DNA from: Bacteroides sp.
Lineage (GTDB): Bacteria; Bacteroidota; Bacteroidia; Bacteroidales; Bacteroidaceae
NCBI GenBank assembly: GCA_017472925.1
Contig: JAFUNS010000034.1
Location: forward strand, 186,001-250,000
DNA: 64,000 nucleotides
Direction of reading: 5' to 3'
Shown one piece after another: positions 1-15,492 of this stretch (position 1 is the stretch's first letter; every line of letters starts with the position of its first letter). Made by a program: the position numbers and the translations under genes. Below the pieces are notes generated by a model, which ran no database searches, was not told where the DNA came from, and saw only the letters and a program-made list of their open reading frames with translations.

Positions 1-1546
1 TTAATATATCTGCTTTTTTAGCTTTACCATATTTTTCAAGATATGGAGCTAATACTGCAAGAACCTGAGTTGCTGTCCAATCTACAAGTTTAGAATAATC
101 TGCAGTTTTACCAGCAACCTCATAATAATGCCTAGCAAGAGTATAGAACTGAGAATTAGTTTTACCATGCTTTTCTATACAATTCTTTTCTTCCAGTCTT
201 TTGGCAATATTCTTGTCTATGTTTTTATGTTGACCATCTCTAATTTTACACATCTCGATGACGTCAAAAACAGTCAGCTTTTCATTGTCTGGTAAATCAC
301 GCTGAATTGTTTGTACAAAAAGAGCAAAACTAGCATCTTTCACTAAAGCCGACAAAATGGCTGTAACATCAAAGTCGTCCGATTTAGAATAATCAGGTTC
401 TGGTTTACCTTCCGCAAGAGTATATAAGAAGATTTTGTCCATTCCTTGTCCGGAACGTTCTACGACACCAGTTTTTGATAAGACGTCTGCTAAAAGACGA
501 TTTCTAGGAGTGCTTGGTACAGTCAATAGGTTTTCCAATGAAACTCCTTGAGGGAATCCACCTGCATTGATTATATCCAATCTGGTAGGATATAATTTAA
601 TAACGATTTCGCTATTACGTCTATAATCACGATGTGCAAAAGCATTATTGACAATCTCTCTAATAACATCTTCATTGAAATAGGGGATGTCAAAAATATA
701 GGCACCTTCTCTAACGGGGAAAGAACCATTCTTGTCATTTATTTCATCCCACACTAAATCAATCAGTTTATAAAAAGGTTGGCCGAATTCTTTTCTATTA
801 TTAAATTCGATTTGTCCTTCTGTTCTTCTATATTCAAGCTTTACTTTGGCTTGTGGGAAAATCTTATTTATAACATCTTCTTTTCCGACGAGCAATACTG
901 CGGCATTGGTTACTTTTCCTTCTTTGATCAATCCTAAATCACTCAAGGCTTGGAAAGGTGGTAATGAAGTAAAAGAAGGATTTTTCTGTTTGATTGAATA
1001 CTTTTCTTTAAGGATTTCAATTGCTTCTAAATCCAAATCGTCAAATGTAGCTTCATCACAAATACGTTCTGAGAAGTCAGGCTCTTGTTCTTGAATAATA
1101 GAGATATATGTTTTATCATCCATTGGTTTGAGTTCTTCGCCAACTCGCATCAATGGAACATCTTCAAATTTATACAATTTTCCTGTTGGACGAGGTGGAA
1201 CTTCTATAACCAAAACTCTTTTCTTATTTTCGTCATAAAGTTCATAAATCATTGGGCGGATTCCCAAATCCTTATAGATTTCACTTTCTAACACTCCGAT
1301 TGCATTTAATGATTGCGATGTGCCAACAACTGCATGTGGATACGCATCATGCATTCCCAAAACCAATCGTCCACCATTTTCGTTACATAATGCAACGACA
1401 TATCCAAGAATACATTTTCTACGGTCCTTTGGATCCATTTTGCTTGCACCATTGTACGAGAAGTTTCCATTCTCAGCTTTCTTGAACTCAACATGGTCTT
1501 CAGACTCTCGTTGAAGTTGTAGTTCTTCTATCGTATATTTCTTCAT
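1..1546 (-). CDS. AlbA_2 (Schlafen-type) ATP-binding protein, partial
   Basis: The reading frame opens with ATG at 1546 and stays open to the window edge, so the C-terminus is missing; I translated about 515 residues by eye. The N-terminus has the AlbA_2 hallmark (EFKKAENG near residue 20, then ALCNENGGRLVLGM). A later part (EDVIREIVNNAFAHRDY, then GFPQGVSLENLL and ERSGQGMDKI) matches the GHKL-like ATPase half of the RecG-like/Schlafen AlbA_2 proteins. This family is usually called transcriptional regulator or ATP-binding protein and often accompanies phage-defence operons. It starts 42 bp after the methyltransferase stop and reads in the same direction, so it probably belongs to the same operon. 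Its biochemical role is not known from the sequence. Confidence 0.85.
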   Translation of the reverse strand, partial: MKKYTIEELQLQRESEDHVEFKKAENGNFSYNGASKMDPKDRRKCILGYVVALCNENGGRLVLGMHDAYPHAVVGTSQSLNAIGVLESEIYKDLGIRPMIYELYDENKKRVLVIEVPPRPTGKLYKFEDVPLMRVGEELKPMDDKTYISIIQEQEPDFSERICDEATFDDLDLEAIEILKEKYSIKQKNPSFTSLPPFQALSDLGLIKEGKVTNAAVLLVGKEDVINKIFPQAKVKLEYRRTEGQIEFNNRKEFGQPFYKLIDLVWDEINDKNGSFPVREGAYIFDIPYFNEDVIREIVNNAFAHRDYRRNSEIVIKLYPTRLDIINAGGFPQGVSLENLLTVPSTPRNRLLADVLSKTGVVERSGQGMDKIFLYTLAEGKPEPDYSKSDDFDVTAILSALVKDASFALFVQTIQRDLPDNEKLTVFDVIEMCKIRDGQHKNIDKNIAKRLEEKNCIEKHGKTNSQFYTLARHYYEVAGKTADYSKLVDWTATQVLAVLAPYLEKYGKAKKADIL

Positions 1547-1588
1547 ACTAAACAATTTCTAATCAATTACAAATATACCACCATTCCC

Positions 1589-4216
1589 TTACACTCTCAT
1601 TGAAGCGATGTCGTAGTACTGCAACAGTACTTCGTCTTCTTGGAGGAGTGATTCCTGTATATGGTCGCCCACGGTGACGATGGCTTGGTAATTCTTCTGC
1701 TTGTAGCATTCCTTGAAGCCATAGCGGAGCACTTCCAGACGAGTGTCTTTCATGCGCTTAGCTTTGGGCTTTGATGCTTGTTCGAGGTAGAGGTTGAATT
1801 CCTTCATCAACTTCTTACCACGGAGTATTTCGAGGTCGGCAGCCTTTTCTGCATCCGGTTTACGCCATTTCCCGTCTTCGTCTTTGATGAAGTTCTCTTC
1901 GAGGATAACAGCTAGCTCTGGCAATACGTCTCCCTTCTTGGGTGCTACCATGTCTTTCATCCAGTTAGGAAGAATTTCTTGGTAGGTCTGTGGTTCTGCA
2001 AGCTCACGCTTTAGCCATTCGATACCTTCGGCTTCACTACTGATGAAGAGTGCCATAGGTACAACGCCATCTGTCTTTTCTTTCTTCGCTTCGTATTCTA
2101 CCGTTTGCGATGCGGTAAAGAACATTCCATCACGTTCTATGAATCGTTCACGAAGAGCTTTTTGGAATTCTTGTGCATCCATAGGGATTGCATAACCATG
2201 TTGTACATAGTATGAAATCAATCGGTCATAAAGAATCTTTGGACTTCGTTCAATAACGGCTGTTGTTGAATTGTTCTTTTCCAAATGCACTGGTAAGTGG
2301 TAGAGCAATTCTTCAATAAAATCCATGGCATTGACGGACTTATCTGTGGATTGTTCGAACTTATTAATGAGTTCGGCTGTTGGTTTATAACAGGTAATAA
2401 CAAGGTCTTGCTTTACTGCTGTTGTAGTGGTTACAGCTTTAAATGAACCTTGTTTTTTATCAAGTGCAGCTACATTTACAATAATAAAACCAGAACTCTG
2501 AAGAGCATTTTGAATACTATTCCAAACTATTGCAGAAGTATTACTAAATTCTACCGTCATCCATTTTCCTGGTTTAAGAACTCTATAATATTCTTTCAAT
2601 GAATTAGTCATTAATGCATTATAAGCCATAGTGTTTTTGCTTTGTACACTGCTTATTACAGCTTCTTCAGTATTATTCGTTTTGGTTTGTAGCCATCCTT
2701 CCCATATCGAGCTTAATTCTGAATACATGATATTAGAACCAAATGGTGGATCTGTAAATATGTAATCTATAGAGTTGTTAGCTAATGACTCTATTTTTGT
2801 TGCAGAATTCAATGATATTATCGCATTTCCGCGTTCTATATAGTTAGTGGAACAAAAATCACGTACTTTCGCAAACAAGTTCCTTAAAGGATTAAATTCC
2901 ACATTAAATGATGGTATAAAGAATGTTCCGTATAGCATACTACCTTTTCGGTCGAGTCTAAATTTATACATTTTAGAGACGTTCAAAAGAATAGATGTAA
3001 ACCATGCTTGTAAGAAAATATCCCCCTTTACCAATTCATTAACTCGGCTTAAGAATATATAATTTCGATTTGAGTAAAAATGATGTATATGACTAATACC
3101 ATCCTTCTCATTTCTGCTAACTTCGTCTCCTTTAGGAATCTTAGATGTTCGCAATGTTCCTAGGTCTATTCGATTTATTCTATCTAACAGTTCTTTGTCA
3201 AGAGATGTAATATCGTGCTCTCCCCTTTTATTACCTATGATATAATTGATTCGAACAGGAACCTTCTTTGTTATGGAAGTCGTAGTTCCTAGAATGGTGT
3301 CAAAATAAGTGTCATGTACTTTTTCCAATATTTTTTTTGTACAATTTGCGCCACAATTAGGACAAGGAAATGAATCTTTCATTGTTTCGTTATCTAAATC
3401 TACTGATTCATCCCATAATACGATTTCATTTCCACATGTTGGGCAAGTGAAAACATCACTCCAAATGGTATAATTTATCTTTGCTTTTTTACCATTCACT
3501 TCTGTTTCGTACATCCACCCCAGTTCTTCCTCTACTTGGTTAAGAATCTTCGTTGCTTTTCTTTCAAAAGCAACAGGGTCGAACTTTAGGTTGTATGTAG
3601 CAGCAATCAATGAAGCAATAGGAGAGAGGTCGGAGCAAACAGCATGGCGTACACCAACTTTTACATCTTTTTCGTTTAAAGCCAATACGTCTTTTAGTGA
3701 ACCACATAACTGAGCTGCAACACCGGTCATACCTGTGCCACAGAAACCATCAAATACAATATCACCCGGTTGGGTATAGTGTAAAATATATCGCATTATT
3801 GCAGGATGTGGTACTTTGGTGTGGTATGCATGAGCCATATAGATAGGATTATTCTTGCCCTCACTTACATCGCTTGCGTAGGGTTCGTTTACTTCAAACT
3901 CTGCACTACGTTTCCCTTGTCTCTCCAATTCTACCTTTTCCTTTTCCCATTCAGCAATAAAGTCATTGAGCCAAGGGTTAGGACAGGCTGTATAATAAGG
4001 AGGGTCGGAAAGGTTGATAATATCCTCATCCTCCCCAATAGGGAATCCTTCTATCTGGCGTAGCTCAGGCAGTTTCTTGCGAAGCTCTTCGCGGAAATAT
4101 GCACGACGGGCATCGTCGCTTTCAAATTCCATACCAAGGCATACCACCTTTTCAGGAGTCAATTTTACTTCTTCAAACTCCTCGTCGCGAAACAAATTTA
4201 TATCAGGGTTGCTCAT
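1589..4216 (-). CDS. Zinc-ribbon DNA methyltransferase, PglX/DUF1156-like
   Basis: An 875-residue SAM-dependent DNA methyltransferase. The SAM-binding motif I is FDGFCGTGMTG near residue 155. There are two candidate catalytic motifs: DPPY at residues 71-74 (SDPPYYTACPNP) and DPPF near residue 490 (FTDPPFGSNIMY). Between motif I and DPPF are two zinc-ribbon cysteine pairs (CPTCGN near 256, CPNCGANC near 285), and the C-terminal third is charged and helical. Such proteins modify adenine or cytosine (N6/N4) and, in BREX/Pgl-type systems, mark host DNA as self. It starts 11 bp after the stop of the large ATPase, so the two are probably co-transcribed. The target base and site cannot be read from the sequence. 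The classification as the modification arm of a defence system rests on the neighbours. Confidence 0.8.
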   Translation of the reverse strand: MSNPDINLFRDEEFEEVKLTPEKVVCLGMEFESDDARRAYFREELRKKLPELRQIEGFPIGEDEDIINLSDPPYYTACPNPWLNDFIAEWEKEKVELERQGKRSAEFEVNEPYASDVSEGKNNPIYMAHAYHTKVPHPAIMRYILHYTQPGDIVFDGFCGTGMTGVAAQLCGSLKDVLALNEKDVKVGVRHAVCSDLSPIASLIAATYNLKFDPVAFERKATKILNQVEEELGWMYETEVNGKKAKINYTIWSDVFTCPTCGNEIVLWDESVDLDNETMKDSFPCPNCGANCTKKILEKVHDTYFDTILGTTTSITKKVPVRINYIIGNKRGEHDITSLDKELLDRINRIDLGTLRTSKIPKGDEVSRNEKDGISHIHHFYSNRNYIFLSRVNELVKGDIFLQAWFTSILLNVSKMYKFRLDRKGSMLYGTFFIPSFNVEFNPLRNLFAKVRDFCSTNYIERGNAIISLNSATKIESLANNSIDYIFTDPPFGSNIMYSELSSIWEGWLQTKTNNTEEAVISSVQSKNTMAYNALMTNSLKEYYRVLKPGKWMTVEFSNTSAIVWNSIQNALQSSGFIIVNVAALDKKQGSFKAVTTTTAVKQDLVITCYKPTAELINKFEQSTDKSVNAMDFIEELLYHLPVHLEKNNSTTAVIERSPKILYDRLISYYVQHGYAIPMDAQEFQKALRERFIERDGMFFTASQTVEYEAKKEKTDGVVPMALFISSEAEGIEWLKRELAEPQTYQEILPNWMKDMVAPKKGDVLPELAVILEENFIKDEDGKWRKPDAEKAADLEILRGKKLMKEFNLYLEQASKPKAKRMKDTRLEVLRYGFKECYKQKNYQAIVTVGDHIQESLLQEDEVLLQYYDIASMRV

Positions 4217-4227
4217 AGCTTTGTTCT

Positions 4228-7200
4228 TTACTTGATTATTATACGAATGTCCTCTTGGCGTTTTCCATAACTCTTTTCTTCGATGTACTCAGTCAAAGCA
4301 TCGATGGCCTGTTGCTTGGTCATTGGACGAGAGAAGATGCGGAGCATATCATCATGGGTAATCTCAATCTTAGTGAAATTACGTTGCAGTTTGCCGATAG
4401 CTTCCATCAAAGGACGGGCAAATTGACGATTCAAAGAAATTTGGTTATTCTCGAATTGCTCTATCAAACTCTTTTCATCATTATTGAGTACATCACGATT
4501 ACGACGAGTCATGGGGTCTTCCAATGCATCGTGGAATTGTCTTACATATTCTTCATAGATGCCTTTCAACTCGTCCTTCAAATCACCCACTTCTGGCAAT
4601 TGACTACGCTGAGTCGTAGGATTGAAACTATCCACGGAGGTCGGAGCATAGAGAATGCTTTGCTTGGTTACCTGTGGATTGGCCAATTTAAGACGATTCA
4701 GTTTTTGCTTCCACTGCTCATATTGTGCAGGGTTAATAAATGAAGCACCTGAAACAATTTCGCATACGCTATACTCTTCTGTGGCTTTGAGCGCTTGCGC
4801 CTTTTGGTAGTCCATTTCACAAACATGAACTTTGAGATATTCACCCATGTACCAATCGGCATAGCGATTCTTTATGGCATCCAGTTCGCCCTTGTAAGCG
4901 TTTCTGGCTGCTTCGTCCTTATCTACTATTTCCTTGACTTTTTCAATAGCCTCACAAATGTCACCACGAAGTGTCGGTTCGTTGATGTTGGAAAGTGCTG
5001 TACGCAAGTATGAAATATAGGATTCAAACTCTCTTAACTGCTTCAATGTACGTTCTGTATTTTCCAACTTCATGCGTGTTTCCTGCATAGCAGTACGAAC
5101 TAATTCGATAGGCCATTCGATGTTACGCATCTTGGCTTTGGAGTTGTAACGTTGAATTTGATTGGCAATGCCTTTCAGTTTGTCAAACTCATGGTTGAGC
5201 TGACGGGCATCCTCTTCTGATATGATTTCAATATTTCCTGCGAAACGATATCCACCATTTATCTTGTATTGTAATGCAACAACACGTTCTTCCATCTGCT
5301 TGGCTTTGCTTGACAAGTCGGCAAACACACTGCTTTCACGATTATCCAACTCCGATGTTCGGTCAATGCCCAAGAAGCCAATCATCAATTCACGTATCAG
5401 AGGAATGTTGATACCCTTAGGTGGACAAATGTTAGAGAAAGTATAGCAATCCTGTGGTGCCAAGTTGTTGAAGCTAGCAATGTTGCTTGCATTGATTCTG
5501 TTGCCGCCATTGAGAACGATTTCTATCTCACCCAAAGCAGCCATTGTACCCATTACAAGCATTTCCAAATCGGCTTCGATATGGAAGTCAGATGAAATAT
5601 ATTCGTGAGTATCTGCAAAGAAGAGTTCAAGTATCTCGTCACGATTGACCACCTGGCCCCCTTTTGCTTCCAATTTTTGCTTCAAGCTACGGGCATATTG
5701 TGAATGTTCGGTTGAAAGATGTCCGTCTTCCCACAAGCCGAGTCCCATCAAGATGGCCTCACCATTGCGGTTCATGGTCGTAGGATTGGCTATCTTTGAA
5801 CGAGCCGAACGTAACATGTTGTCACGATTTTCCTTTGTAAGTGGTTGCAACAATGCAGTGAACTTAGGGTAGCAAGAGTTCTCTGCTTCGAACTGTTGCT
5901 CCATGATGAAAGAGGTTACATTGCTAACAATGTCAATCTTAGAATCGCCTTGTGCCCCCTGCATTACCTGCAAAGGATGTTGCTCGCCCACATATTCCAC
6001 TTGGGTATTGCTGAGGAATTGAGTATTGAATAAGTTACGGGCTTCCTTGAAGTATTTATCGCGCAACAATTTGTATTTAGGCTTTTCATCACTGCTGGCA
6101 CTTCCTTCTTGTGAAAGGGCAGAACCATAGAGTGTAACCTTTTGTTTGAACTCTTCGCTCAAACCATCCATGATGAAATATACACTATCTATCTCGGCAT
6201 CATGTGCTTTTGCCGTATGGTTGAATATCGGCATGAAATAGATATAGAAGTGTTGTTGAGGTTGGGTAGTAGAACGGCTGTTCGGATTGCCCATAAAGAT
6301 ATAACCGGCACGGTTGCACTTGTGTGATTGCCATTCGATGGCATGTGGCCAGATGTTGAACCCAGTACGGTAAGTATCACCTTCTACAGGAAGTACCTCT
6401 GCTAAGAACTTGAAGAAGTATTCATCTTTTTGTTCTGGACTCATCTGTAGGGTGTAGTCCTTTACCTTCTGTTCGTAGTTGACACCACCTTCAATACGCA
6501 AATGGTATTCGTTTTCTCCTTTCTCGAAATATTGGCCGATAGTAGCAGAAACAATGGAGTCAAGCACACGAGTAAATGCAAGGTCAACCAATTCGTCGTA
6601 GTTTTCACAAGTGATGTCGATGTAGCAAAGGTCGTTTGCCAAAGAATCAGCTGTTACACCATTGGCATGACTGAGGTCTGCTTGCAACATTTTGATGGAT
6701 GCTGCAGCTACGATACGATGTGCCAAAGTCTTTTTGGGAGCCAATCCGCGGGTAAAGTTATCCTCAATCTTTTGATCAATGAGTGCAGCAATGTCGCTGA
6801 CCTTACTTACATCCGGATCGGCTTTCAAATCCACATTGCTCAACATGTCCTTCCAATAAGAGTCGTAGCAGATAAGTCCTGGTTCTGCATCAGGCACTTC
6901 GTTGTCCATGATGCTGGCAAACTTACGGGAAAGTGTCTTCAACACCTCGCGCTGGCTCTTACCGATACGGATAAGAGAGAAGTTTTCAAAATAACTTGGA
7001 TGAACTGGAAAGAGGTTGACGTATGTATCCAAATTGTTGTTCATGTGAGGGAACATTACAATGAACTGTGACAGATGTTGGTGTATCTGTGCTTTCTGAT
7101 GCTCATTCTTCTGCAACAGACGTTGTTGTACAATGAACTGTACATCTTCCTTTTGAATGGTCAAGTCGATATAGCGTTCATTGACATGACTCAACATTTC

Positions 7201-7893
7201 CTTGGCAAATTGGAATTCAGGAGAACGATATATCAATTCCTGTACACCAAACACCATACGGAAATGGGTACGGTCACTCATTTGGCCCAATGCCTGGAGT
7301 ACCGCCAAGTCACGATTTAACTTCGATGGTTCACTACGGCCTTTCAGATAAGAAAGCATTTCATCGATAACCAACATAAAGCCCTTATCTGGATATACCT
7401 CTTCGAAAGCAGCCATCATTAACTGAAGCTTTTCGGAATAGGTAGCAGGTGTCGTATCATCCGTAATTGAATAATCTACTCCCCATGCTGCCAATGCCTT
7501 ATCTATTTGGTAGCATACAATATCCCATAATTCTTGATTATTACCCAATTCAAAACGATAGACCATGTATTTACCGGCTATCGTCTTCAACCAATCCTTC
7601 GCTTTCTGACTTTGTAACAATGGCAGATAGTCTGCATTCTCAGCAATAATAGAGAATAGCGACATTAAGTGAGACTTACCCGTACCATAATTACCCACAA
7701 TCTGAATACCTTTGGTCTCGGTAGTAGCATTTAAGTCAAGCTTGGCACATATCTGCGGGATAATATGGGTCTCATACAAATTGGAACATACAAAGTTCTT
7801 GACGAGCTTCGCACGGTAATCATTGTTGTCAAGTTGTCCGAACTTGATAATTTCGTCGATGGGGTCGAATTGGATAAGGTCTTTATATTTCAT
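4228..7893 (-). CDS. Large P-loop ATPase, PglY/BrxC-like (DUF6079-like)
   Basis: A 1221-residue protein with an N-terminal AAA-like ATPase: Walker A GNYGTGKS at residues 67-74 and Walker B GFMLVIDEM at 171-179, with the DE pair at 177-178. The opening MKYKDLIQFDPIDEII and the overall size recall, from memory, the DUF6079 family, whose members are described as PglY/BrxC-type ATPases of phage-defence loci. The middle and C-terminal regions have long charged helical stretches and no enzymatic motif that I recognise. Its start overlaps the end of the 144-aa gene by 11 nt, suggesting translational coupling, and the methyltransferase follows 11 bp after its stop. In BREX, BrxC/PglY is an essential ATPase acting with the methylase and PglZ. 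That role here is inferred. Confidence 0.75.
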   Translation of the reverse strand: MKYKDLIQFDPIDEIIKFGQLDNNDYRAKLVKNFVCSNLYETHIIPQICAKLDLNATTETKGIQIVGNYGTGKSHLMSLFSIIAENADYLPLLQSQKAKDWLKTIAGKYMVYRFELGNNQELWDIVCYQIDKALAAWGVDYSITDDTTPATYSEKLQLMMAAFEEVYPDKGFMLVIDEMLSYLKGRSEPSKLNRDLAVLQALGQMSDRTHFRMVFGVQELIYRSPEFQFAKEMLSHVNERYIDLTIQKEDVQFIVQQRLLQKNEHQKAQIHQHLSQFIVMFPHMNNNLDTYVNLFPVHPSYFENFSLIRIGKSQREVLKTLSRKFASIMDNEVPDAEPGLICYDSYWKDMLSNVDLKADPDVSKVSDIAALIDQKIEDNFTRGLAPKKTLAHRIVAAASIKMLQADLSHANGVTADSLANDLCYIDITCENYDELVDLAFTRVLDSIVSATIGQYFEKGENEYHLRIEGGVNYEQKVKDYTLQMSPEQKDEYFFKFLAEVLPVEGDTYRTGFNIWPHAIEWQSHKCNRAGYIFMGNPNSRSTTQPQQHFYIYFMPIFNHTAKAHDAEIDSVYFIMDGLSEEFKQKVTLYGSALSQEGSASSDEKPKYKLLRDKYFKEARNLFNTQFLSNTQVEYVGEQHPLQVMQGAQGDSKIDIVSNVTSFIMEQQFEAENSCYPKFTALLQPLTKENRDNMLRSARSKIANPTTMNRNGEAILMGLGLWEDGHLSTEHSQYARSLKQKLEAKGGQVVNRDEILELFFADTHEYISSDFHIEADLEMLVMGTMAALGEIEIVLNGGNRINASNIASFNNLAPQDCYTFSNICPPKGINIPLIRELMIGFLGIDRTSELDNRESSVFADLSSKAKQMEERVVALQYKINGGYRFAGNIEIISEEDARQLNHEFDKLKGIANQIQRYNSKAKMRNIEWPIELVRTAMQETRMKLENTERTLKQLREFESYISYLRTALSNINEPTLRGDICEAIEKVKEIVDKDEAARNAYKGELDAIKNRYADWYMGEYLKVHVCEMDYQKAQALKATEEYSVCEIVSGASFINPAQYEQWKQKLNRLKLANPQVTKQSILYAPTSVDSFNPTTQRSQLPEVGDLKDELKGIYEEYVRQFHDALEDPMTRRNRDVLNNDEKSLIEQFENNQISLNRQFARPLMEAIGKLQRNFTKIEITHDDMLRIFSRPMTKQQAIDALTEYIEEKSYGKRQEDIRIIIK

Positions 7894-8317
7894 CGTAATG
7901 AATTTTATAGGATATGTCAGATAAATTTATTCTGTAAGAAGAGTCTGTATCACCCGCCAAATAGAAGATGTCCTTTTGGATTGTTCCTTCAGCACTATCT
8001 ACAATAAGCACGTATGCTTTTGACCATGTACTGAATTTTGCATGTAAATCGAGTCTTAAAGCAGGTTCAAATAGGATACCGATATTGCGGATGGCGATGT
8101 AATCTCCAATCTCGGAACTATGGCATACATTTGCCTTGATAATCTTTTCTAACTCTTCTTCAGCAACGAAAGAAAGATGTCGATTGGATAATGAAGATTC
8201 AATAGCACGAGCCAATAAAGCACCTATATCCACAAAGTTCATCCCTTCGGCATGATGCGAAGTGAACAGTAGCTTGTGGCGAGCGCCAGTTGGTATGTAT
8301 TGCTTCAATATCTTCAT
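7883..8317 (-). CDS. 144-aa protein of unknown function, coupled to the ATPase
   Basis: I do not recognise a family with certainty. The protein is soluble, mixed alpha/beta, and shows no Walker A motif, signal peptide or membrane segment. It lies 18 bp behind the XRE regulator and overlaps the ATPase start by 11 nt, so its synthesis is likely tied to the ATPase. In BREX type 3 a small protein of similar size (BrxF, which has a P-loop) sits at the same position ahead of BrxC/PglY. The second half here (ILFEPALRLDL, then KAYVLIVD) could be a diverged relative without the P-loop, but this is only positional and visual similarity. A partner or loading subunit for the ATPase is the best guess. Confidence 0.6.
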   Translation of the reverse strand: MKILKQYIPTGARHKLLFTSHHAEGMNFVDIGALLARAIESSLSNRHLSFVAEEELEKIIKANVCHSSEIGDYIAIRNIGILFEPALRLDLHAKFSTWSKAYVLIVDSAEGTIQKDIFYLAGDTDSSYRINLSDISYKIHYDEI

Positions 8318-8335
8318 TGTAATCTCTCCTTTAGA

Positions 8336-8575
8336 TTATACTCTCACGATCTTAAACTCTTCTTCTCTGGAAGAATTGAGTAGGTCTTTTACATCCACTT
8401 CAAGCAAATTAGCTACTTGGAGCAAAGTTGCCAAATCGGGTTGCGATGTATTGGTACACCATTTGGATATGGTAGCAGGGTCTTTGCCAAGCTGCTCTGC
8501 CAACCACTTGTTTGTTCTCTTCTTTTCTACGAGAACGACTTTTATTCGATTCAAATCTTTCATATTCACCGCCAT
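8336..8575 (-). CDS. XRE-family helix-turn-helix regulator (79 aa)
   Basis: A small Cro/C1-type DNA-binding protein. The helix-turn-helix covers roughly residues 19-45 (KWLAEQLGKDPATISKWCTN), followed by the typical ANLLEVDVKDLL helix of the family. An inner start at Met5 (8563) is also possible. It is the first gene of the putative defence operon, with a perfect -7 box 18 bp upstream of its start and a TTGCGT-CAA-ACGCAA palindrome over the promoter, so autoregulation is likely. Homologous small regulators control restriction-modification operons, where they delay or balance toxic components; that role is inferred here. Confidence 0.85.
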   Translation of the reverse strand: MAVNMKDLNRIKVVLVEKKRTNKWLAEQLGKDPATISKWCTNTSQPDLATLLQVANLLEVDVKDLLNSSREEEFKIVRV

Positions 8576-8580
8576 TTTTA

Positions 8581-8600
8581 TTGCGTCAAACGCAAAATTA
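8581..8600 (-). promoter_or_regulatory. Promoter and operator of the defence operon
   Basis: On the minus strand TAATTTTG (8593-8600) is a perfect match to the Bacteroides -7 consensus TAnnTTTG, followed at once by the palindrome TTGCGT-CAA-ACGCAA (8581-8595). A second, looser copy with the same GCG half-sites (TTTGCG...CGCAAA, 8627-8647) lies upstream. The XRE protein encoded next is the obvious candidate to bind both. Confidence 0.6.
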
Positions 8601-8707: not shown

Positions 8708-9160
8708 TTATACGAGACAAATTATAAGGATAGATATCAATAATAGCGAGCTGAGTATAACTATCGCTATTGTTTTGTAATATGCCACCTTTTGTGACTC
8801 GCGCTCCTTTCGATATTCTTTGATAAGGCCGTTTGCTATAGTTATCAGTTTATTTTCAATACCATTTAGAGGGGTAAGAGTAGGTTTGATGTATTGCTCA
8901 AAAAGATTCTTCTCTCTCTGGGTTGTCCAAGTTGCCATAGCTTGATGATGGCGCTTGGCTTCTTCGTCTTTCTCTATTTGAGACTTGTTAGGGAACTTTT
9001 CATTGAGCGCAATAAAGATGGATTCATCTACGATTTTCCCAATGTCATATTGTTGAATGGTATTTTGTAATTGTAGTATTGCCTGGCGGTTCTTTTTTAC
9101 CTCATTTACTAGGTCGTCAAACATTGATAGCAAAGCTGCATTTTCATTTTCTTTCTTCAT
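8708..9160 (-). CDS. Membrane-anchored coiled-coil protein of the mobilization region
   Basis: 150 residues. The N-terminal two thirds are charged and helical (heptad-like NRQAILQLQNTIQQYD), and a single hydrophobic segment ends the protein (TIAIVILSSLLLISILIICLV region, residues about 129-149), so it is probably a tail-anchored inner-membrane protein with its bulk in the cytoplasm. Its start overlaps the relaxase stop by 4 nt, and in this position Bacteroides mobilizable elements often encode a third mobilization protein. A function in docking the relaxosome to the membrane or coupling protein is plausible but not shown by any motif. Confidence 0.7.
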   Translation of the reverse strand: MKKENENAALLSMFDDLVNEVKKNRQAILQLQNTIQQYDIGKIVDESIFIALNEKFPNKSQIEKDEEAKRHHQAMATWTTQREKNLFEQYIKPTLTPLNGIENKLITIANGLIKEYRKERESQKVAYYKTIAIVILSSLLLISILIICLV

Positions 9161-10164
9161 CTTCTTCTAAATTTACGCGGTTTATTATTTTTATTGTCTT
9201 TGTCATTCTCTTCATCATCGGAAGAACCACCACCTCCACCACCGGATGAAGGCACAACATGAGGTTGTAATGCGAACTCAATAGCTGCATTTACCAGTTT
9301 TTCTCCTAATGATGGTCCATTATCAGTATTTGTGTTATCGGGTTCATATATTCGGATGACACTTCCATCATCCAACTTTTCTTGATAAACATGAGCAAAC
9401 GTATTTGGAGTTAACTCTTGTAGGTTCTGTTGGAACTGATCTGTTTTTCCTAACACATTAACTAATTTATTGTAACCCAAGCTACGGTCAATTTTTGAGC
9501 CACTATAGGTGTGACCATCTATAGTAAAGCATATACCATGCACATTGCCGTTTTCATTTCTTCGGAATGAAATAGTAATCCCTCTTCTTTCAAGTTTACG
9601 TTGGAAACTATCCCAATTATTACAATTGTGCAAGGAATCCAAGATGGATGTATATAATTGAAACTTTTCCTTATCCATACCGTGTAATCTATTCGACTTG
9701 ATTTTTTCTTTACCTTTAGGCATGTATAATCCGTACTGTAAGGTAATCTGTTTGCAAATAGCAGCACTGCGAATTTGATCTTTACTATCACTAATCGTAT
9801 GGCCATCGTTATCCACACGATTGTACACTATATGTATATGTGGATGGTCTTTATCGAAATGGCGAACTATAATGTATTGCGTATTTTTGATGCCCATCTT
9901 TTCCATGTAATCATGCGCAATTTGAATAATTCGTTCATTAGTCAATTTATGATTATCATTCTCGCTAAAACTTAGGGCTGTGTGCCCAACCATATTCTTC
10001 ACTTTGTCGTTTTGCGAAGCCTGGTCAGTGAAGCATGCAATAATGTTGGGTAAGGTATTTGTCCGAACACCTTCAGATGCCAATAACTTAGCATCTTTGC
10101 CATCTTTGAAGACGTAGTTTACGACATTACCAAAGCTGCTACGTTTCATAATCTTTGCAATCAT
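9157..10164 (-). CDS. MobA/VirD2-type relaxase
   Basis: A 335-residue relaxase that would nick oriT and pilot single-stranded DNA during conjugative mobilization. The metal-binding histidine cluster HFDKDHPHIH is at residues 102-111, and the N-terminal MIAKIMKRSSFGNVVNYVF is typical of Bacteroides MobB/MbpB-like relaxases (Pfam relaxase family PF03432). The C-terminus is Gly/Ser-rich then Lys/Asn/Arg-rich (residues about 308-335), a likely flexible basic tail. It overlaps the upstream MobC-like gene by 4 nt. No type IV secretion genes are visible here, so transfer would rely on a helper conjugative element. Confidence 0.92.
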   Translation of the reverse strand: MIAKIMKRSSFGNVVNYVFKDGKDAKLLASEGVRTNTLPNIIACFTDQASQNDKVKNMVGHTALSFSENDNHKLTNERIIQIAHDYMEKMGIKNTQYIIVRHFDKDHPHIHIVYNRVDNDGHTISDSKDQIRSAAICKQITLQYGLYMPKGKEKIKSNRLHGMDKEKFQLYTSILDSLHNCNNWDSFQRKLERRGITISFRRNENGNVHGICFTIDGHTYSGSKIDRSLGYNKLVNVLGKTDQFQQNLQELTPNTFAHVYQEKLDDGSVIRIYEPDNTNTDNGPSLGEKLVNAAIEFALQPHVVPSSGGGGGGSSDDEENDKDNKNNKPRKFRRR

Positions 10165-10514
10165 CCTCTAATCTTTTTAATAATGTTGTCCACTTCATCC
10201 ATCAAATGGCCGGCCTCAGTTGCCACATGAAGATAGCCATAAGTATTCGCACTCTTAGTCAATTGATTCAAGTTGTTGGCCATGCCAGCTAATACCCTTA
10301 TGTGCTTTACCTCTTCCGAAGTCAATCTGGATTTTATGCTTCCATTTACTGCACATTCTCTGATGTACTCAGCGGGCTTGACTCCAGACATTTTAGCCTT
10401 TCCTTTGATGGTATGTTTCTCTATGGGAGTACATTTGATTGTGAAAATCTCACTTCGTTTTTCTACTCTTGTCAGTTGCGGTCTTCCGCCTTTATTCTTA
10501 TCGTTGGTATTCAT
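10161..10514 (-). CDS. MobC-like relaxosome accessory protein
   Basis: 117 residues, starting with a basic segment (KNKGGRPQLTRVEKR) and continuing with the pattern of ribbon-helix-helix MobC proteins (RSEIFTIKCTPIEK, KAKMSGVKPAEYIREC, then LAGMANNLNQLTKSAN). Proteins of this type bind oriT and help the relaxase nick. It overlaps the relaxase gene by 4 nt, and the sequence directly upstream contains a set of inverted repeats that looks like oriT. Confidence 0.9.
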   Translation of the reverse strand: MNTNDKNKGGRPQLTRVEKRSEIFTIKCTPIEKHTIKGKAKMSGVKPAEYIRECAVNGSIKSRLTSEEVKHIRVLAGMANNLNQLTKSANTYGYLHVATEAGHLMDEVDNIIKKIRG

Positions 10515-10663: not shown

Positions 10664-11719
10664 TTATTTGTTCTCGAAATGGAAGCCTACCAGTTCCAAA
10701 TTGAGGAGTGCTATCATCTTCTTAAGAGAGGGATTTTTCTGGCACATACTTTGTAATATGGCTTCACCGGACTTCTCTTTTATCAGATAATCTGCAATGT
10801 CATATCCGTTTTCTTTTTCCTCTGCACTTGCATGTTGCCCCAAATAGTCAGACAGAATAACGTTGATGCCTTTTCGTCTCATCAAGAATGCTTTCTTTTG
10901 CCATTCATCTTCCATGCCGATGTCCGGAAAGAGGACCACATTCCTGCCGCAAAGAATATCAAAGTGCTGTTCATTAAAACAGCCATTCTTTCCACCTGTG
11001 GCTAACCAGATATAATTAGGTATATAAGCGGAAGCTATGATGGCAGTCTTTTCACTCTCAACAATGGCTACTGGTTTGTTATTGCCAGCCAACAGGTGTT
11101 CGCCAAAGAAACATTGGTTGAGTGTAAAAGAGGACAGATTAAGTACCGTATGTACCCATGAAATTTTAGCATATGGTTCTTTTACACGTTTGCCGGTGTT
11201 GGGATTGTAGAGCATGACTTTACCTGTATGTACTCTGCCTTCTTTGTCCACTTGCCAAAATACAGTAGAGTTACCCCATTTTTTTGCTGTACCTACATGA
11301 TACATTTGCATTTGTTGGATGGTGGTCTTTGTTCCGAGTTGTCCACACAGATATGCATATAGGTTGTTGCGTTCATAATGACGTAATGACTGTTCCATAA
11401 TCCGTCTGTCAATAAATGATGCGTCCATTGCTTCTGGTGTAAAAGGTTTTACATCCTTTGTGGTAGGGGGAGAGAAAGATTGTTCTCTTGTCTTTTCCCT
11501 TTCGTTTGGATTCTTGTCGAAATACATAGATGGGGAATAGTGATAACCGCATTTGTTCTCGCGATTGCATTTACCCACATAGTCAGGAAATTCAATACTG
11601 CCTTCAATGTCAATATAGCGTGAGAATTGAAACTTTTTTCCGCAACTTGGACAAGTGTAGCGGTTTCTTTTACTCCTGTTATATGGTTCTAATATGAATC
11701 TATAATTTGTCATTTGCAT
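10664..11719 (-). CDS. Zinc-finger/Toprim primase-like protein (DUF6371-like)
   Basis: 351 residues with an N-terminal zinc-binding set (Cys23, Cys26, Cys51, Cys57, with His60 nearby) like the CHC2 finger of DnaG-type primases, and a central Toprim-like fold: VAIVESEKTAIIAS near residue 215 supplies the Glu and NVVLFPDIG near 255 the Asp. Proteins of this kind accompany DUF3987 proteins in Bacteroides integrative elements, where they are thought to start DNA synthesis on the excised circle. It lies between the DUF3987 gene and the oriT-like repeats. The replication role is inferred from the family and context. Confidence 0.75.
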   Translation of the reverse strand: MQMTNYRFILEPYNRSKRNRYTCPSCGKKFQFSRYIDIEGSIEFPDYVGKCNRENKCGYHYSPSMYFDKNPNEREKTREQSFSPPTTKDVKPFTPEAMDASFIDRRIMEQSLRHYERNNLYAYLCGQLGTKTTIQQMQMYHVGTAKKWGNSTVFWQVDKEGRVHTGKVMLYNPNTGKRVKEPYAKISWVHTVLNLSSFTLNQCFFGEHLLAGNNKPVAIVESEKTAIIASAYIPNYIWLATGGKNGCFNEQHFDILCGRNVVLFPDIGMEDEWQKKAFLMRRKGINVILSDYLGQHASAEEKENGYDIADYLIKEKSGEAILQSMCQKNPSLKKMIALLNLELVGFHFENK

Positions 11720-11772: not shown

Positions 11773-13146
11773 TCAATTTGGCATTTTGTTAAGTGCCTTT
11801 TGATAGTGCCCGAGGTATTTGGTGCTTGCCTTTTTCAAGAACCTGTCGAATGTGCTGGGATTCCATTCCAGTTGTATTGCAATCTCCAATCCTTCTGCAC
11901 GACTGAATTCTTCAGGGAGTTTCTGCAATAATACTTTCTGTTTGGCAGTTAGAAATATTCCATTCATCATATCATTAACCAATAAAGCTGTTCCCTTGTA
12001 GTAATCTACCAGTTTAATAGCCTTAGTGACAGTATCAAAATCCACTTTATCTACGCTCCCTTCATTGCAAAGCCATTTGCAGACTTGGATAATGAGACAA
12101 AAGCGGTGAATGAATATCTCAAATTTGCTATAGATACCTTTCTTCTTGTCAGACTCTTCCTCGTTAATCATATCAGTCCAGTTTCGCTGCCATTCCAATA
12201 GAAGTTTCTTTGCTTCTAGCTCGTACTCTATTGTTGTTGGTATTACGCGGCCAGTTTCATCTGTTGAAATTTTCAAGTGAATGAGTTTTTGAATGATATT
12301 ATCCCAATCACCGTAATAGGAAGCGTCCATATCTGTATCATTCCAATAGGATTTTTCTTGTTCTTCTGGAATAGCAAACAGGATTCTTTCGGCAAAGCCA
12401 TTGTCGCTTTTACTCCCTTTGAGCATTTCAGTAAGTATAGCCGGTTGTATTGTCCCAATGATACAAGCAAAAGGATCGTCGATGCAATTATTGTTTGTAT
12501 CTCCTTTTCGGTCGGATATATAGCAGCTTCCGTTAAAAAGAGAAATATAAAACTGTTCTTCGGAACCATTATTATAACGGGTGAAATTCTTTACCCAGCC
12601 TTGAAGTTCATCCATGTATAAACATATACCTCTACGATTCTCGGCAAGAGCCTTGACCATTGCTTCCTGCGTGATATCAGATACCAAGAATCGTTTGCGG
12701 ACTGGCAACGTGGGGTCTGTCTCATATCCCTGTTCCATCCGTTCCTTCTTCTTTATTCCCATAATTTTGTTATAGCGATTCAGTTCCTCGCTAAATTTTC
12801 GGTATTGCTCGCTATCAAATTCAAAATATGGACGTAGAACAGTACGGAGGGGGTGGCTTTTGTTTGCACCAGGTCTTCCAACAAGCGCCATATAGAGGAT
12901 ATCTTTAACAGTCCATTCACTTTTGAATTTCAATACATGGGTGTTACCTATGCCTACAGCTATGGCAACTAACATACTTGAGGCTGTATAGTCTACCGGA
13001 TATGTCAATGCTTCTTTCATCTTCCAAATGATTTTACGAATCATTGTGGGGAATATTTCAACCGGGAACTGAGACTTGCAGACTTGATTTATCAGTTTGT
13101 CCGCATCTTCCATGATTCCTTTTGCGGTAATTCTTGTTTCATTCAT
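11773..13146 (-). CDS. DUF3987 helicase/primase-like ATPase
   Basis: 457 residues from Met at 13146, which is preferred to 13176 because it reduces overlap with the upstream HTH gene to 8 nt. A variant Walker A, GRPGANKSHP, is at residues 90-99, and a Walker B-like ICLYMDELQGW follows near residue 170. The architecture matches DUF3987 proteins, which are common in Bacteroidetes mobile elements and related to virus-type helicases. It probably unwinds DNA for replication of the excised element, together with the Toprim protein downstream. Confidence 0.8.
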   Translation of the reverse strand: MNETRITAKGIMEDADKLINQVCKSQFPVEIFPTMIRKIIWKMKEALTYPVDYTASSMLVAIAVGIGNTHVLKFKSEWTVKDILYMALVGRPGANKSHPLRTVLRPYFEFDSEQYRKFSEELNRYNKIMGIKKKERMEQGYETDPTLPVRKRFLVSDITQEAMVKALAENRRGICLYMDELQGWVKNFTRYNNGSEEQFYISLFNGSCYISDRKGDTNNNCIDDPFACIIGTIQPAILTEMLKGSKSDNGFAERILFAIPEEQEKSYWNDTDMDASYYGDWDNIIQKLIHLKISTDETGRVIPTTIEYELEAKKLLLEWQRNWTDMINEEESDKKKGIYSKFEIFIHRFCLIIQVCKWLCNEGSVDKVDFDTVTKAIKLVDYYKGTALLVNDMMNGIFLTAKQKVLLQKLPEEFSRAEGLEIAIQLEWNPSTFDRFLKKASTKYLGHYQKALNKMPN

Positions 13147-13495
13147 AGACCTCCCCTTTCTGAATACGTTCCACATCGGATAATTTGTAGCGTACCTTAT
13201 TGCCTACTTTTGTAGTGGTCAGATATCCTTCCTTGTTCCAACGCCAAAGAGTAGAACGATCTACTTTTAATCTCCTGGCTGTCTCTTCCACGCTTAAATA
13301 CACTTCGGGCTTGTTTTCTCGCTTCTCCAATAGACGGTTAACAGCGTCTTGAACAACATTCTCTAAATCATCTTTAGAGACAATCATTAGCGTTTGTGTG
13401 CTTTTGTTGAATTCGTTCATCATATTTGTGAAAGTGGGTTTGTTGGCAGCCATCATTGGTGATACGTTCACCGCTGCGCCCACTTGGGTCTCCAC
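13139..13495 (-). CDS. Excisionase-like helix-turn-helix protein
   Basis: 118 residues. The C-terminal half is a MerR/excisionase-type winged helix (YLSVEETARRLKVDRSTLWR, then KVGNKVRYKLSDVERIQ), matching the HTH_17 family typical of Bacteroides element excision or regulatory proteins. The N-terminal 50 residues are low in features, and a later start (Met14, Met25 or Met26) cannot be excluded. A -7 box TACATTTG (13530-13537) lies upstream and probably drives the whole replication and mobilization operon. It may act as Xis or as regulator of the operon. Confidence 0.8.
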   Translation of the reverse strand: METQVGAAVNVSPMMAANKPTFTNMMNEFNKSTQTLMIVSKDDLENVVQDAVNRLLEKRENKPEVYLSVEETARRLKVDRSTLWRWNKEGYLTTTKVGNKVRYKLSDVERIQKGEVYE

Positions 13496-13905: not shown

Positions 13906-15315
13906 CTATGCCTCTTCTATTATGTTAAGTTCCTTGTCAACCTTATAAAGTGGTTGTTTGTATGCAGCACTCATTAGAATAAAACGGTCTTTTAGGGATA
14001 AAGAAGAATAGTGTTTAACAGCGTTGCTCCCTTCTTTGTGATGTCCTGAAACATACATGTTGACTTGTACCTTTGTAAGCATATCTATATGTGTCTTACG
14101 ACAAATTTTGCTACTGCCCATAGAATAAAGAGGATTATAGATATTCTCAGAAGACTTTTCATCAAAGATTCTTACCTCTCTGTCTATTTGGCAATATTCG
14201 AGCAATTTTCTGATTTTTACGTTATACCCGCTTTTGCCCGTAACATATTTAAGAATAGGAAAGTTGAATTGCCATTTCTTTATTATGTCTAATGCATATC
14301 TTACAATAGGAATTTCCACTTCATCCTTATGTTCGTTGCTTTTAAGTGTCTTTTGTGGTAGATAACGTAAATAAGGAATACCATCAGTACTCACTGTGAC
14401 TTTATCCATACTGAGAGCTTTGAAATCTTCAATACGACTACCAAAGGCACATTGAAGCAGAAAACACTCTTTTGTTTCCTGTAATGTTTCCGGTACTTCC
14501 GTGCTCATTACCTTTAAAAGTTCTTCCTGTAGCAGATAAATAGGAGCGTCATAGCTTTCTTTCATCACTGCTTTTCTTCTATTCCTGCCAAGCTTTCTGA
14601 ATGGGGAGACTTCTATTTCATCTCGCTCTTCCAGTTCTGTGTAGAAAGCTTGTAACATTCTTAATTTTATGGCTACTGTATTTTGTGCGCGTTCTTTGGT
14701 GGGCAAACATTGTTCTTTTACATCGGCATATAGCGAAGGGTATTTACTGACATATTTATATTCCTCAAAAAGGAAGATACGTAATTCCATTAAATCGTCA
14801 GCTGTAAAATGCTTTGGCAATATGCTTGTTTGATGGTGGATGGCTAGATAACGTTTCAATTCTTTATAGAGGCCATTATATTGAAGGACTCTTTTTTCCG
14901 CAAAAGTTCCGTCACGAAAACCTTCTTTTATAAATCGGCTGTATCTCTCCAACAAAGTCTCCTCTTTAGTTATGGCAATATAATCTTCAGGGTGTAGATG
15001 CCGACTAATTGTTTCTTCAAAAAGTTCTGCTGTTATAAGGCTTTTATCCATCTTTCCACATAACTCTATATATGCAGATTCAATGGCTTTGATTTCTTTG
15101 TCGATTTTTTCCTTAAGCTCGTGGTTGTAGATAGATACCTTGGGACGAAGTTCACCATCGTCTTCAAATTTTGATAAATCCTTGAGGTCGGCTTTTATTT
15201 CACTCTTATGATAAAGGTCAACTCCACGACCATCCCTTAATCGGAATCTAAGTTTGATGGTTCCCTCTGATTTTGTGGTTCTTCTGAATAATGTTAGTCC
15301 TTTCATTGCATGCAT
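13906..15315 (-). CDS. Tyrosine recombinase (integrase) of the element
   Basis: 469 residues with the arrangement of Bacteroides integrases: N-terminal arm-binding domain, SAM-like core-binding domain (residues about 115-240), and catalytic domain. The first catalytic Arg is in CAFGSRIEDF near residue 291 and the nucleophile Tyr in VKHYSSL near residue 435, preceded by GHHKEGSN. The usual HxxR box reads KICR before KTHIDML, so its His appears replaced by Lys, as in some family members. The gene is at the right end of the element and reads inward, the normal position next to the attachment site. Its promoter is covered by GTGGTGCAAAT repeats. Confidence 0.93.
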   Translation of the reverse strand: MHAMKGLTLFRRTTKSEGTIKLRFRLRDGRGVDLYHKSEIKADLKDLSKFEDDGELRPKVSIYNHELKEKIDKEIKAIESAYIELCGKMDKSLITAELFEETISRHLHPEDYIAITKEETLLERYSRFIKEGFRDGTFAEKRVLQYNGLYKELKRYLAIHHQTSILPKHFTADDLMELRIFLFEEYKYVSKYPSLYADVKEQCLPTKERAQNTVAIKLRMLQAFYTELEERDEIEVSPFRKLGRNRRKAVMKESYDAPIYLLQEELLKVMSTEVPETLQETKECFLLQCAFGSRIEDFKALSMDKVTVSTDGIPYLRYLPQKTLKSNEHKDEVEIPIVRYALDIIKKWQFNFPILKYVTGKSGYNVKIRKLLEYCQIDREVRIFDEKSSENIYNPLYSMGSSKICRKTHIDMLTKVQVNMYVSGHHKEGSNAVKHYSSLSLKDRFILMSAAYKQPLYKVDKELNIIEEA

Positions 15316-15450: not shown

Positions 15451-15480
15451 ATGGGTTTAATTCCTGACTCCCGCTTCGAG
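15451..15480 (+). other. Candidate attachment site (tRNA 3'-end-like)
   Basis: The sequence ATTCCTGACTCCCGCT (15460-15475) looks like the end of a T-arm plus the 3' acceptor strand of a tRNA whose 5' strand would be GCGGGAG, and it is followed by an intrinsic terminator as a real tRNA gene would be. No 5' half is present. It would fit a tRNA 3' fragment left at the element's right junction. The T-arm pairing is imperfect and I cannot see the left junction, so this is tentative. Confidence 0.3.
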
Positions 15481-15492
15481 TACTCTGTAAAG

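Follow-up and report, generated by a model that had tools for sequence, protein, structure and literature searches.

What kind of system is encoded by the five closely packed genes at the left end of the window, and how does it vary among close relatives? The window is the whole 64,000-nucleotide stretch that was analysed, and it corresponds to C21:186001-250000, where C21 is a contig of a Bacteroides sp. draft genome (2.81 Mb, 79 contigs, 79.7% complete). The genes lie on the minus strand (window 8575-1) in the order HTH, 144 aa, 1221 aa, 875 aa, and AlbA_2, and their successive gaps are 18 bp, an 11-bp overlap, 11 bp, and 33 bp. A sequence-only reading of the window had described this order and spacing correctly, and the domains that it named, a P-loop ATPase, a zinc-ribbon methyltransferase, and an AlbA_2 protein, are supported by Pfam matches and, for the methyltransferase, also by four conserved cysteines. 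The same reading proposed either a mobile, type 3-like BREX variant or a distinct ATPase-methyltransferase-AlbA_2 defence system, and it considered the gene content unusual.

Type-3 BREX consists of six components, BrxF, BrxC, BrxXI/PglXI, BrxHII, PglZ, and BrxA (PMC12839542, Nucleic Acids Res 2026). The window operon begins with a predicted HTH (XRE/Cro-like) regulator of 79 aa at 8336..8575, which matches HTH_3 (E 1.2e-8) and HTH_26 (E 1.4e-8). It is followed at 7883..8317 by a 144-aa BrxF-like protein, a putative inactive STAND NTPase counterpart (iSTAND), which matches NCBIfam BREX_3_BrxF with an E of 4.6e-4 and PADLOC BrxF with an E of 5.9e-4. The NCBIfam score of 19.9 bits is under the 50-bit cut-off; 38 of 43 aligned family members, the window protein among them, match the BrxF model at E≤0.001, the best with 6.5e-60. 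The 1221-aa protein at 4228..7893 is the BrxC ATPase, a DUF6079 protein that matches PF19557 over its full length (E 1.4e-231, 771.8 bits, cut-off 23), its sole Pfam match at E≤0.1, and PADLOC identifies it as BrxC with an E of 7.8e-242. The 875-aa protein at 1589..4216 is the DNA methyltransferase BrxXI/PglXI (PADLOC PglXI E 0, 1068 bits; N6_N4_Mtase E 5.6e-18). It features the motifs FDGFCGTGMTG at residue 155 and DPPFGSN at residue 489, and between them four cysteines, Cys258, Cys261, Cys285, and Cys288, that are invariant in 36 aligned rows.

The AlbA_2 gene crosses the left edge of the window and occupies 1..1555 on the minus strand, with its last 200 bases outside (full gene C21:185801-187555). 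It encodes a 584-aa Schlafen-type auxiliary protein with an AlbA_2 domain (E 4e-9) and a HATPase_c_4 domain (E 1e-16), and both domains are found in all 16 aligned members of its family. The consensus E-x4-E-F-K, whose residues we take to be catalytic, is largely conserved among relatives, E23 and K25 being shared by 90% or more of the 16 rows. No C-terminal wHTH is recognised by Pfam in the window protein; nine of the 16 members match Fic-like_C and one matches MarR_2. A Schlafen RNase in fusion with a minimal histidine kinase and a wHTH has been catalogued as a BREX auxiliary in at least 1017 taxa (PMC12839542). The window protein resembles these auxiliaries in its AlbA_2 and HATPase_c_4 domains and in its place in the operon beside core genes, and differs in that no wHTH was recognised in it by Pfam. 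As the Schlafen gene is a catalogued auxiliary, an unusual gene content is not supported.

The operon continues on the same strand to the left of the window, where the sequence-only reading had advised that the contig be extended, and the extension located the remaining core genes just outside. The first is a 922-aa helicase at C21:182921-185689 with an SNF2 domain (E 1.2e-15). The top PADLOC model for this protein (listed as BrxHI|BrxHII, E 9.2e-254) is described as 'BrxHI', and the model described as BrxHII gives 2.2e-78. Its best NCBIfam model is DISARM DrmD (E 1.7e-99, under the cut-off), and a RapA-like match covers most of its length. The helicase is assigned to BrxHII because the SNF2 domain and the RapA-like match agree with the definition in PMC12839542. 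At C21:181465-182928 lies a 487-aa PglZ (Pfam PF08665 E 3.5e-13, 50.3 bits, cut-off 25) whose best NCBIfam model is BREX_PglZ_3 (E 2.3e-47, 161.7 bits against a 250-bit cut-off). All 27 rows compared have D246, T280, D393, H394, and H469. Against solved structures, the PglZ profile finds response regulators, presumably PorX-like ones, with a best E of 1.6e-30, and an NCBIfam PorX match is also present. With three fragments that stop at contig or stretch ends set aside, PglZ in relatives is either about 480-494 aa or 596-692 aa long; the short PglZ of this operon is not a lesion, since the 480-494 aa form is common to many relatives. The last core gene, at C21:180852-181463, encodes a 203-aa BrxA-like protein that matches PADLOC BrxA (E 2.3e-6) and gave no match in NCBIfam or Pfam. 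The sequence-only reading had seen neither PglZ nor BrxL before the left edge. It missed PglZ because the start of this gene is about 3 kb beyond the left edge; BrxL is not among the PADLOC matches listed for 12 different operon and cargo proteins, as is expected of type 3.

All six core genes are counted as present, BrxF as a probable one whose weak match is backed by its family. The locus shares with the published type-3 BREX (PMC12839542) the six core components so counted, the DUF6079 ATPase, and four cysteines where an insert is described, and it differs in the short PglZ and in BrxF and BrxA proteins that are far from the curated models. On gene content we are highly confident that the locus is a type-3 BREX phage-defence operon, HTH-BrxF-BrxC-BrxXI-Schlafen-BrxHII-PglZ-BrxA, complete in its core set and borne together with further cargo by a 26.4-kb mobilizable element in a tRNA-Leu(TAA) gene. 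Two other identities were weighed. A BREX-related (BR) type-3 system would feature a DUF499 ATPase, a DUF1156 methyltransferase, a BrxHII-like helicase, a stand-alone PglZ, and iSTAND. The short PglZ without a long N-terminal part would fit such a system, and DUF1156-type models do match the methyltransferase secondarily and weakly, at about 32 bits; however, this compares with 1068 bits for PglXI, the ATPase is a DUF6079 protein (772 bits) with DUF499 not among its Pfam matches at E≤0.1, and a BrxA-like gene is at the right place, so that we regard a BR type-3 system as very improbable. We give almost no credence to a new ATPase-methyltransferase-AlbA_2 system separate from BREX. The close packing of these three genes is what suggests it, but BrxHII, PglZ, and BrxA follow directly downstream and complete the type-3 set together with the BrxF-like gene, and the AlbA_2 gene is optional, occupies one or the other of two positions flanking BrxXI, and belongs to a different kind in a relative with a near-identical backbone (L008, below).

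The conservation of the type-3 BREX operon was assessed with 63 loci (L numbers) from a single BrxXI scan of GTDB genome contigs. Gene counts were restricted to the 34 loci whose flanks reach at least 4.5 kb ahead of BrxXI and at least 7 kb past it, and even here a gene scored as missing may sit past the end of the stretch, as in the long operons of L024 and L050. BrxC and PglZ were each found in 32 of these loci, BrxF in 31, BrxA in 30, and BrxHII in 26; the share of BrxHII in type 3 has been published as 77% (PMC12839542). All six core genes are present in 23 of the 34 and a Schlafen gene in eight, whereas none of the other core genes was seen in L040 and L048. The sequence-only reading had named scattering of the genes in other genomes as a result that would speak against it; the core genes co-occur instead. 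The order BrxF-BrxC-BrxXI-(BrxHII)-PglZ-BrxA recurs among relatives, and relatives of the HTH gene lie directly ahead of BrxF or overlap its start in L004, L006, L008, L017, L035, L049, L057, and L058. Among 393 genomes sampled from the order, a close BrxC was found by DNA comparison at E≤1e-50 only in the window's own genome. A rearranged locus, L054:274-10768, has BrxXI ahead of BrxC and carries BrxA and BrxHII in the reverse orientation. Four loci (L028, L032, L036, and L038) feature a tandem pair of BrxXI genes within one type-3 operon, which suggests two specificities at once. The type-3 BREX of Phocaeicola vulgatus ATCC 8482 (L004, NC_009614.1) has the same gene order as the window operon and the same place for its Schlafen gene, whereas its BrxC is 72% identical and the Schlafen gene itself is another one.

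The mobilizable element that carries the operon spans 26.4 kb, and besides the operon and its cargo it encodes a relaxase, MobC, primase-like, helicase-like, and excisionase-like proteins, and a presumed integrase, all on the minus strand. The mobilization module (8708..10514) comprises a 150-aa protein without a significant match (8708-9160), a MobA/VirD2 relaxase (9157-10164, Relaxase E 1e-36), and a MobC/NikA protein (10161-10514, NikA-like E 6e-21, MobC E 2e-9). It is followed by a primase-like protein (10664-11719, PHROGs primase E 9.3e-6), a helicase-like protein (11773-13176, PHROGs helicase E 6.5e-72), and an excisionase-like protein (13139-13495, PHROGs excisionase and regulator E 9.7e-11). 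The sequence-only reading was right that the operon is mobile, and the relaxase that it named is borne out; its integrase, a 469-aa protein at 13906..15315, has no significant family match, with no PHROGs family at E≤0.01 and an E of 0.11 on the Pfam SAM-like integrase domain. A 40%-identical relative of this protein reaches 7e-4 on the same domain, under its cut-off. We call it a presumed tyrosine integrase because of its place beside the attachment site and the weak SAM-like domain. A fragment with 79% identity to this integrase is found at G002:C3:48217-49089, about 1.8 kb from the same tRNA-Leu, in a genome of the same genus without a BrxC match.

Both ends of the element are marked by a 15-bp sequence that repeats the 3' terminus of tRNA-Leu(TAA). 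On the left it lies at C21:175071-175085, within the tRNA gene at C21:175000-175085, and on the right, as the right attachment site, at 15469..15483 of the window. An empty site was found in five (G061, G009, G081, G030, and G060) of 60 genus genomes, a total that counts the window's own, and there the left-flank and right-flank matches overlap by exactly 15 bases, the right-flank matches being short (35-57 bases). A Bacteroidaceae MAG, RGIG4261 (L008), carries the same mobilizable element, ending at the same tRNA-Leu/tRNA-Gly pair, with 90.3% DNA identity over 10.5 kb and a relaxase that is 77% identical in amino acids. A plasmid or phage home was rejected: BrxC relatives occur in seven of 72,556 plasmid records, all with less than 60% identity, none of 50,697 phage records matches BrxXI at E≤1e-10, and IMG/VR gave one partial BrxC relative that is 56% identical.

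As a BREX locus the operon is ordinary, and the fresh point is the exchange of a methyltransferase segment among close relatives. L006 and L008 are relatives from roe-deer gut whose BrxC is 98% identical to that of the window, with the lowest identity of any 40-aa stretch of BrxC at 92.5% against L006 and 80% against L008. The N-terminal 160 residues of BrxXI are 92% and 94% identical to those of L006 and L008, and the part beyond residue 600 is 98% and 80% identical. In contrast, residues ~165-480 (window 2777..3724, minus strand), which hold the four cysteines, are only 35% and 32% identical in amino acids. At the DNA level, residues 1-150 are 73-93% identical to L006, residues 181-480 are 39-57% identical to L006, and this second stretch is 37-58% identical to L008. 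The segment begins directly after motif I (155-165), and this lower edge is cleaner than the upper one: in both L006 and L008 the identity rises to 71-79% around DPPF (489) and falls to 52% at 511-540, and in L008 it stays low until about residue 720. Residues ~165-480 are the expected place of the target-recognition insert. BrxXI has been described as interrupted within its catalytic domain by an insert that carries a four-cysteine motif, and the type-3 recognition domain was assigned from sequence and structure analysis (PMC12839542); in type-1 PglX the recognition domain instead follows the methyltransferase domain (PMC11341690). In either type it is a methyltransferase domain that would set specificity and is expected to vary. 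Profile comparison of BrxXI with solved structures gave matches only at profile positions 120-183, and none was found in the segment beyond them.

The segment and the backbone have different relatives. BrxC of the window joins L006 and L008 with support of 100 in a quick tree, and this grouping rests on the tree together with the 98% identity. The segment joins L004 and L007, a Prevotellaceae locus, also with support of 100 in a quick tree; its identity is 60% to L004, the closest, and 55% to L007, while the corresponding BrxC proteins are 72% and 45% identical. Comparisons beyond these loci drew on 43 loci in which BrxXI measures 800 aa or more and BrxC 1100 aa or more (44 with the window's own), of which 41 entered the pair counts after L028, L036, and L038 were dropped for having more than one such BrxXI. 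Among the 14 pairs with BrxC at least 80% identical, which involve 17 loci and are not independent since loci are shared among pairs, the segment is at most 40% identical in nine, eight of them with N-terminal identity of at least 80%, and above 40% in the remaining five. One of the nine is the pair of two strain records, L061 and L057, with 80% identity in BrxC, 88% in the N-terminal part, 34% in the segment, and 88% in the C-terminal part. Type-3 BREX thus often, though not universally, keeps its backbone and exchanges residues ~165-480 of BrxXI, and such an exchange would probably alter the DNA target.

The low identity of the segment might instead reflect fast divergence in place, with no exchange. 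Target-recognition domains do diverge fast (PMC12839542), and the median identity of the segment over all 820 pairs is 33%. Against divergence in place, the window's segment is closer to L004 and L007, with their more distant BrxC, than to L006 and L008; a clade of the window, L006, and L008 is rejected on the segment by the AU test (p-AU 0.00015, for a group picked after the data were seen), and 12 of the 704 pairs with BrxC less than 50% identical have a segment that is at least 50% identical. We consider this explanation unlikely. An assembly artefact of metagenome bins, which might also produce a mosaic BrxXI, has a clearly smaller chance of being correct: L006 and L008 are MAGs and the window genome is itself an incomplete draft, but the changes of identity fall within one open gene, and the pattern recurs in the nine pairs above, that between the strain records included. 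Divergence of pglX between two type-1 loci (PMC9009780) and phase variation of pglX (PMC11341690) have been reported. A literature search that did not extend to subscription papers and preprints found no published account of such an exchange in BrxXI of type-3 systems, and the main text of PMC12839542 has no words beginning with swap, recombin, or exchange.

The genes beside BrxXI and behind BrxA vary as well. Schlafen genes lie within 400 bases of BrxXI, on either side, in 15 of the 63 loci (16 genes). In L006, where the core genes aside from the BrxXI segment are about 92% DNA-identical to those of the window, the Schlafen protein is 98% identical, whereas the L008 protein belongs to a different kind and has its nearest counterpart in L004 (48%). 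An AAA_14/DUF4143 gene is placed between BrxC and BrxXI at L006:7179-8765. After BrxA the window operon has four genes, L006 one of 1057 aa or more, and L008 a single 627-aa gene. The four cargo genes of the window element (C21:175212-180901, or L002:9212-14901, left of the window) encode proteins of 609 aa (no family match), 444 aa (HSDR_N and DUF2971), and 454 aa and 288 aa (both without family). A stretch of the 609-aa protein resembles a PD-(D/E)XK core as judged by eye. Among 295 genomes of the class, 10 have a match to it, counting the window's own, and BLASTP shows it to be unrelated to the 627-aa protein of L008 (best E 0.13). A Pfam scan of a selection of 18 other ORFs flanking BrxXI and two genes from behind BrxA identified AAA_14/DUF4143, AAA_21 with RloB, AbiGi, AAA_15 (twice), AAA_13, ORF6N, Fic, HipA, AIPR, a subtilase beside an AAA protein, and DUF4145; six of the 20 scanned genes had no Pfam match (both behind BrxA, one in L057, two in L061, and one in L034).

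By analogy with type-1 BREX, an active window operon would use BrxXI to methylate adenine in one short non-palindromic host motif, and BrxC, BrxF, BrxA, BrxHII, and PglZ would detect and stop DNA without this mark, with PglZ as the likely nuclease of the set. The Schlafen protein may act as a second-line (reserve) RNase. It is probable, with appreciable room for doubt, that type-3 BREX changes its DNA target by homologous replacement of BrxXI residues ~165-480, from motif I to DPPF and sometimes further, and its second-line effector by gene swaps in two slots flanking BrxXI, while the backbone and the element remain nearly constant. The window, L006, and L008 provide a natural experiment of three operons that are 98% identical in BrxC and differ in the expected target-recognition segment, and their methylation motifs would tell if the segment sets the target of type-3 BREX. 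If the proposed changes of target and effector are real, the element would serve as a platform whose specificity and effector parts can be interchanged, much as HsdS is exchanged in type I restriction systems.
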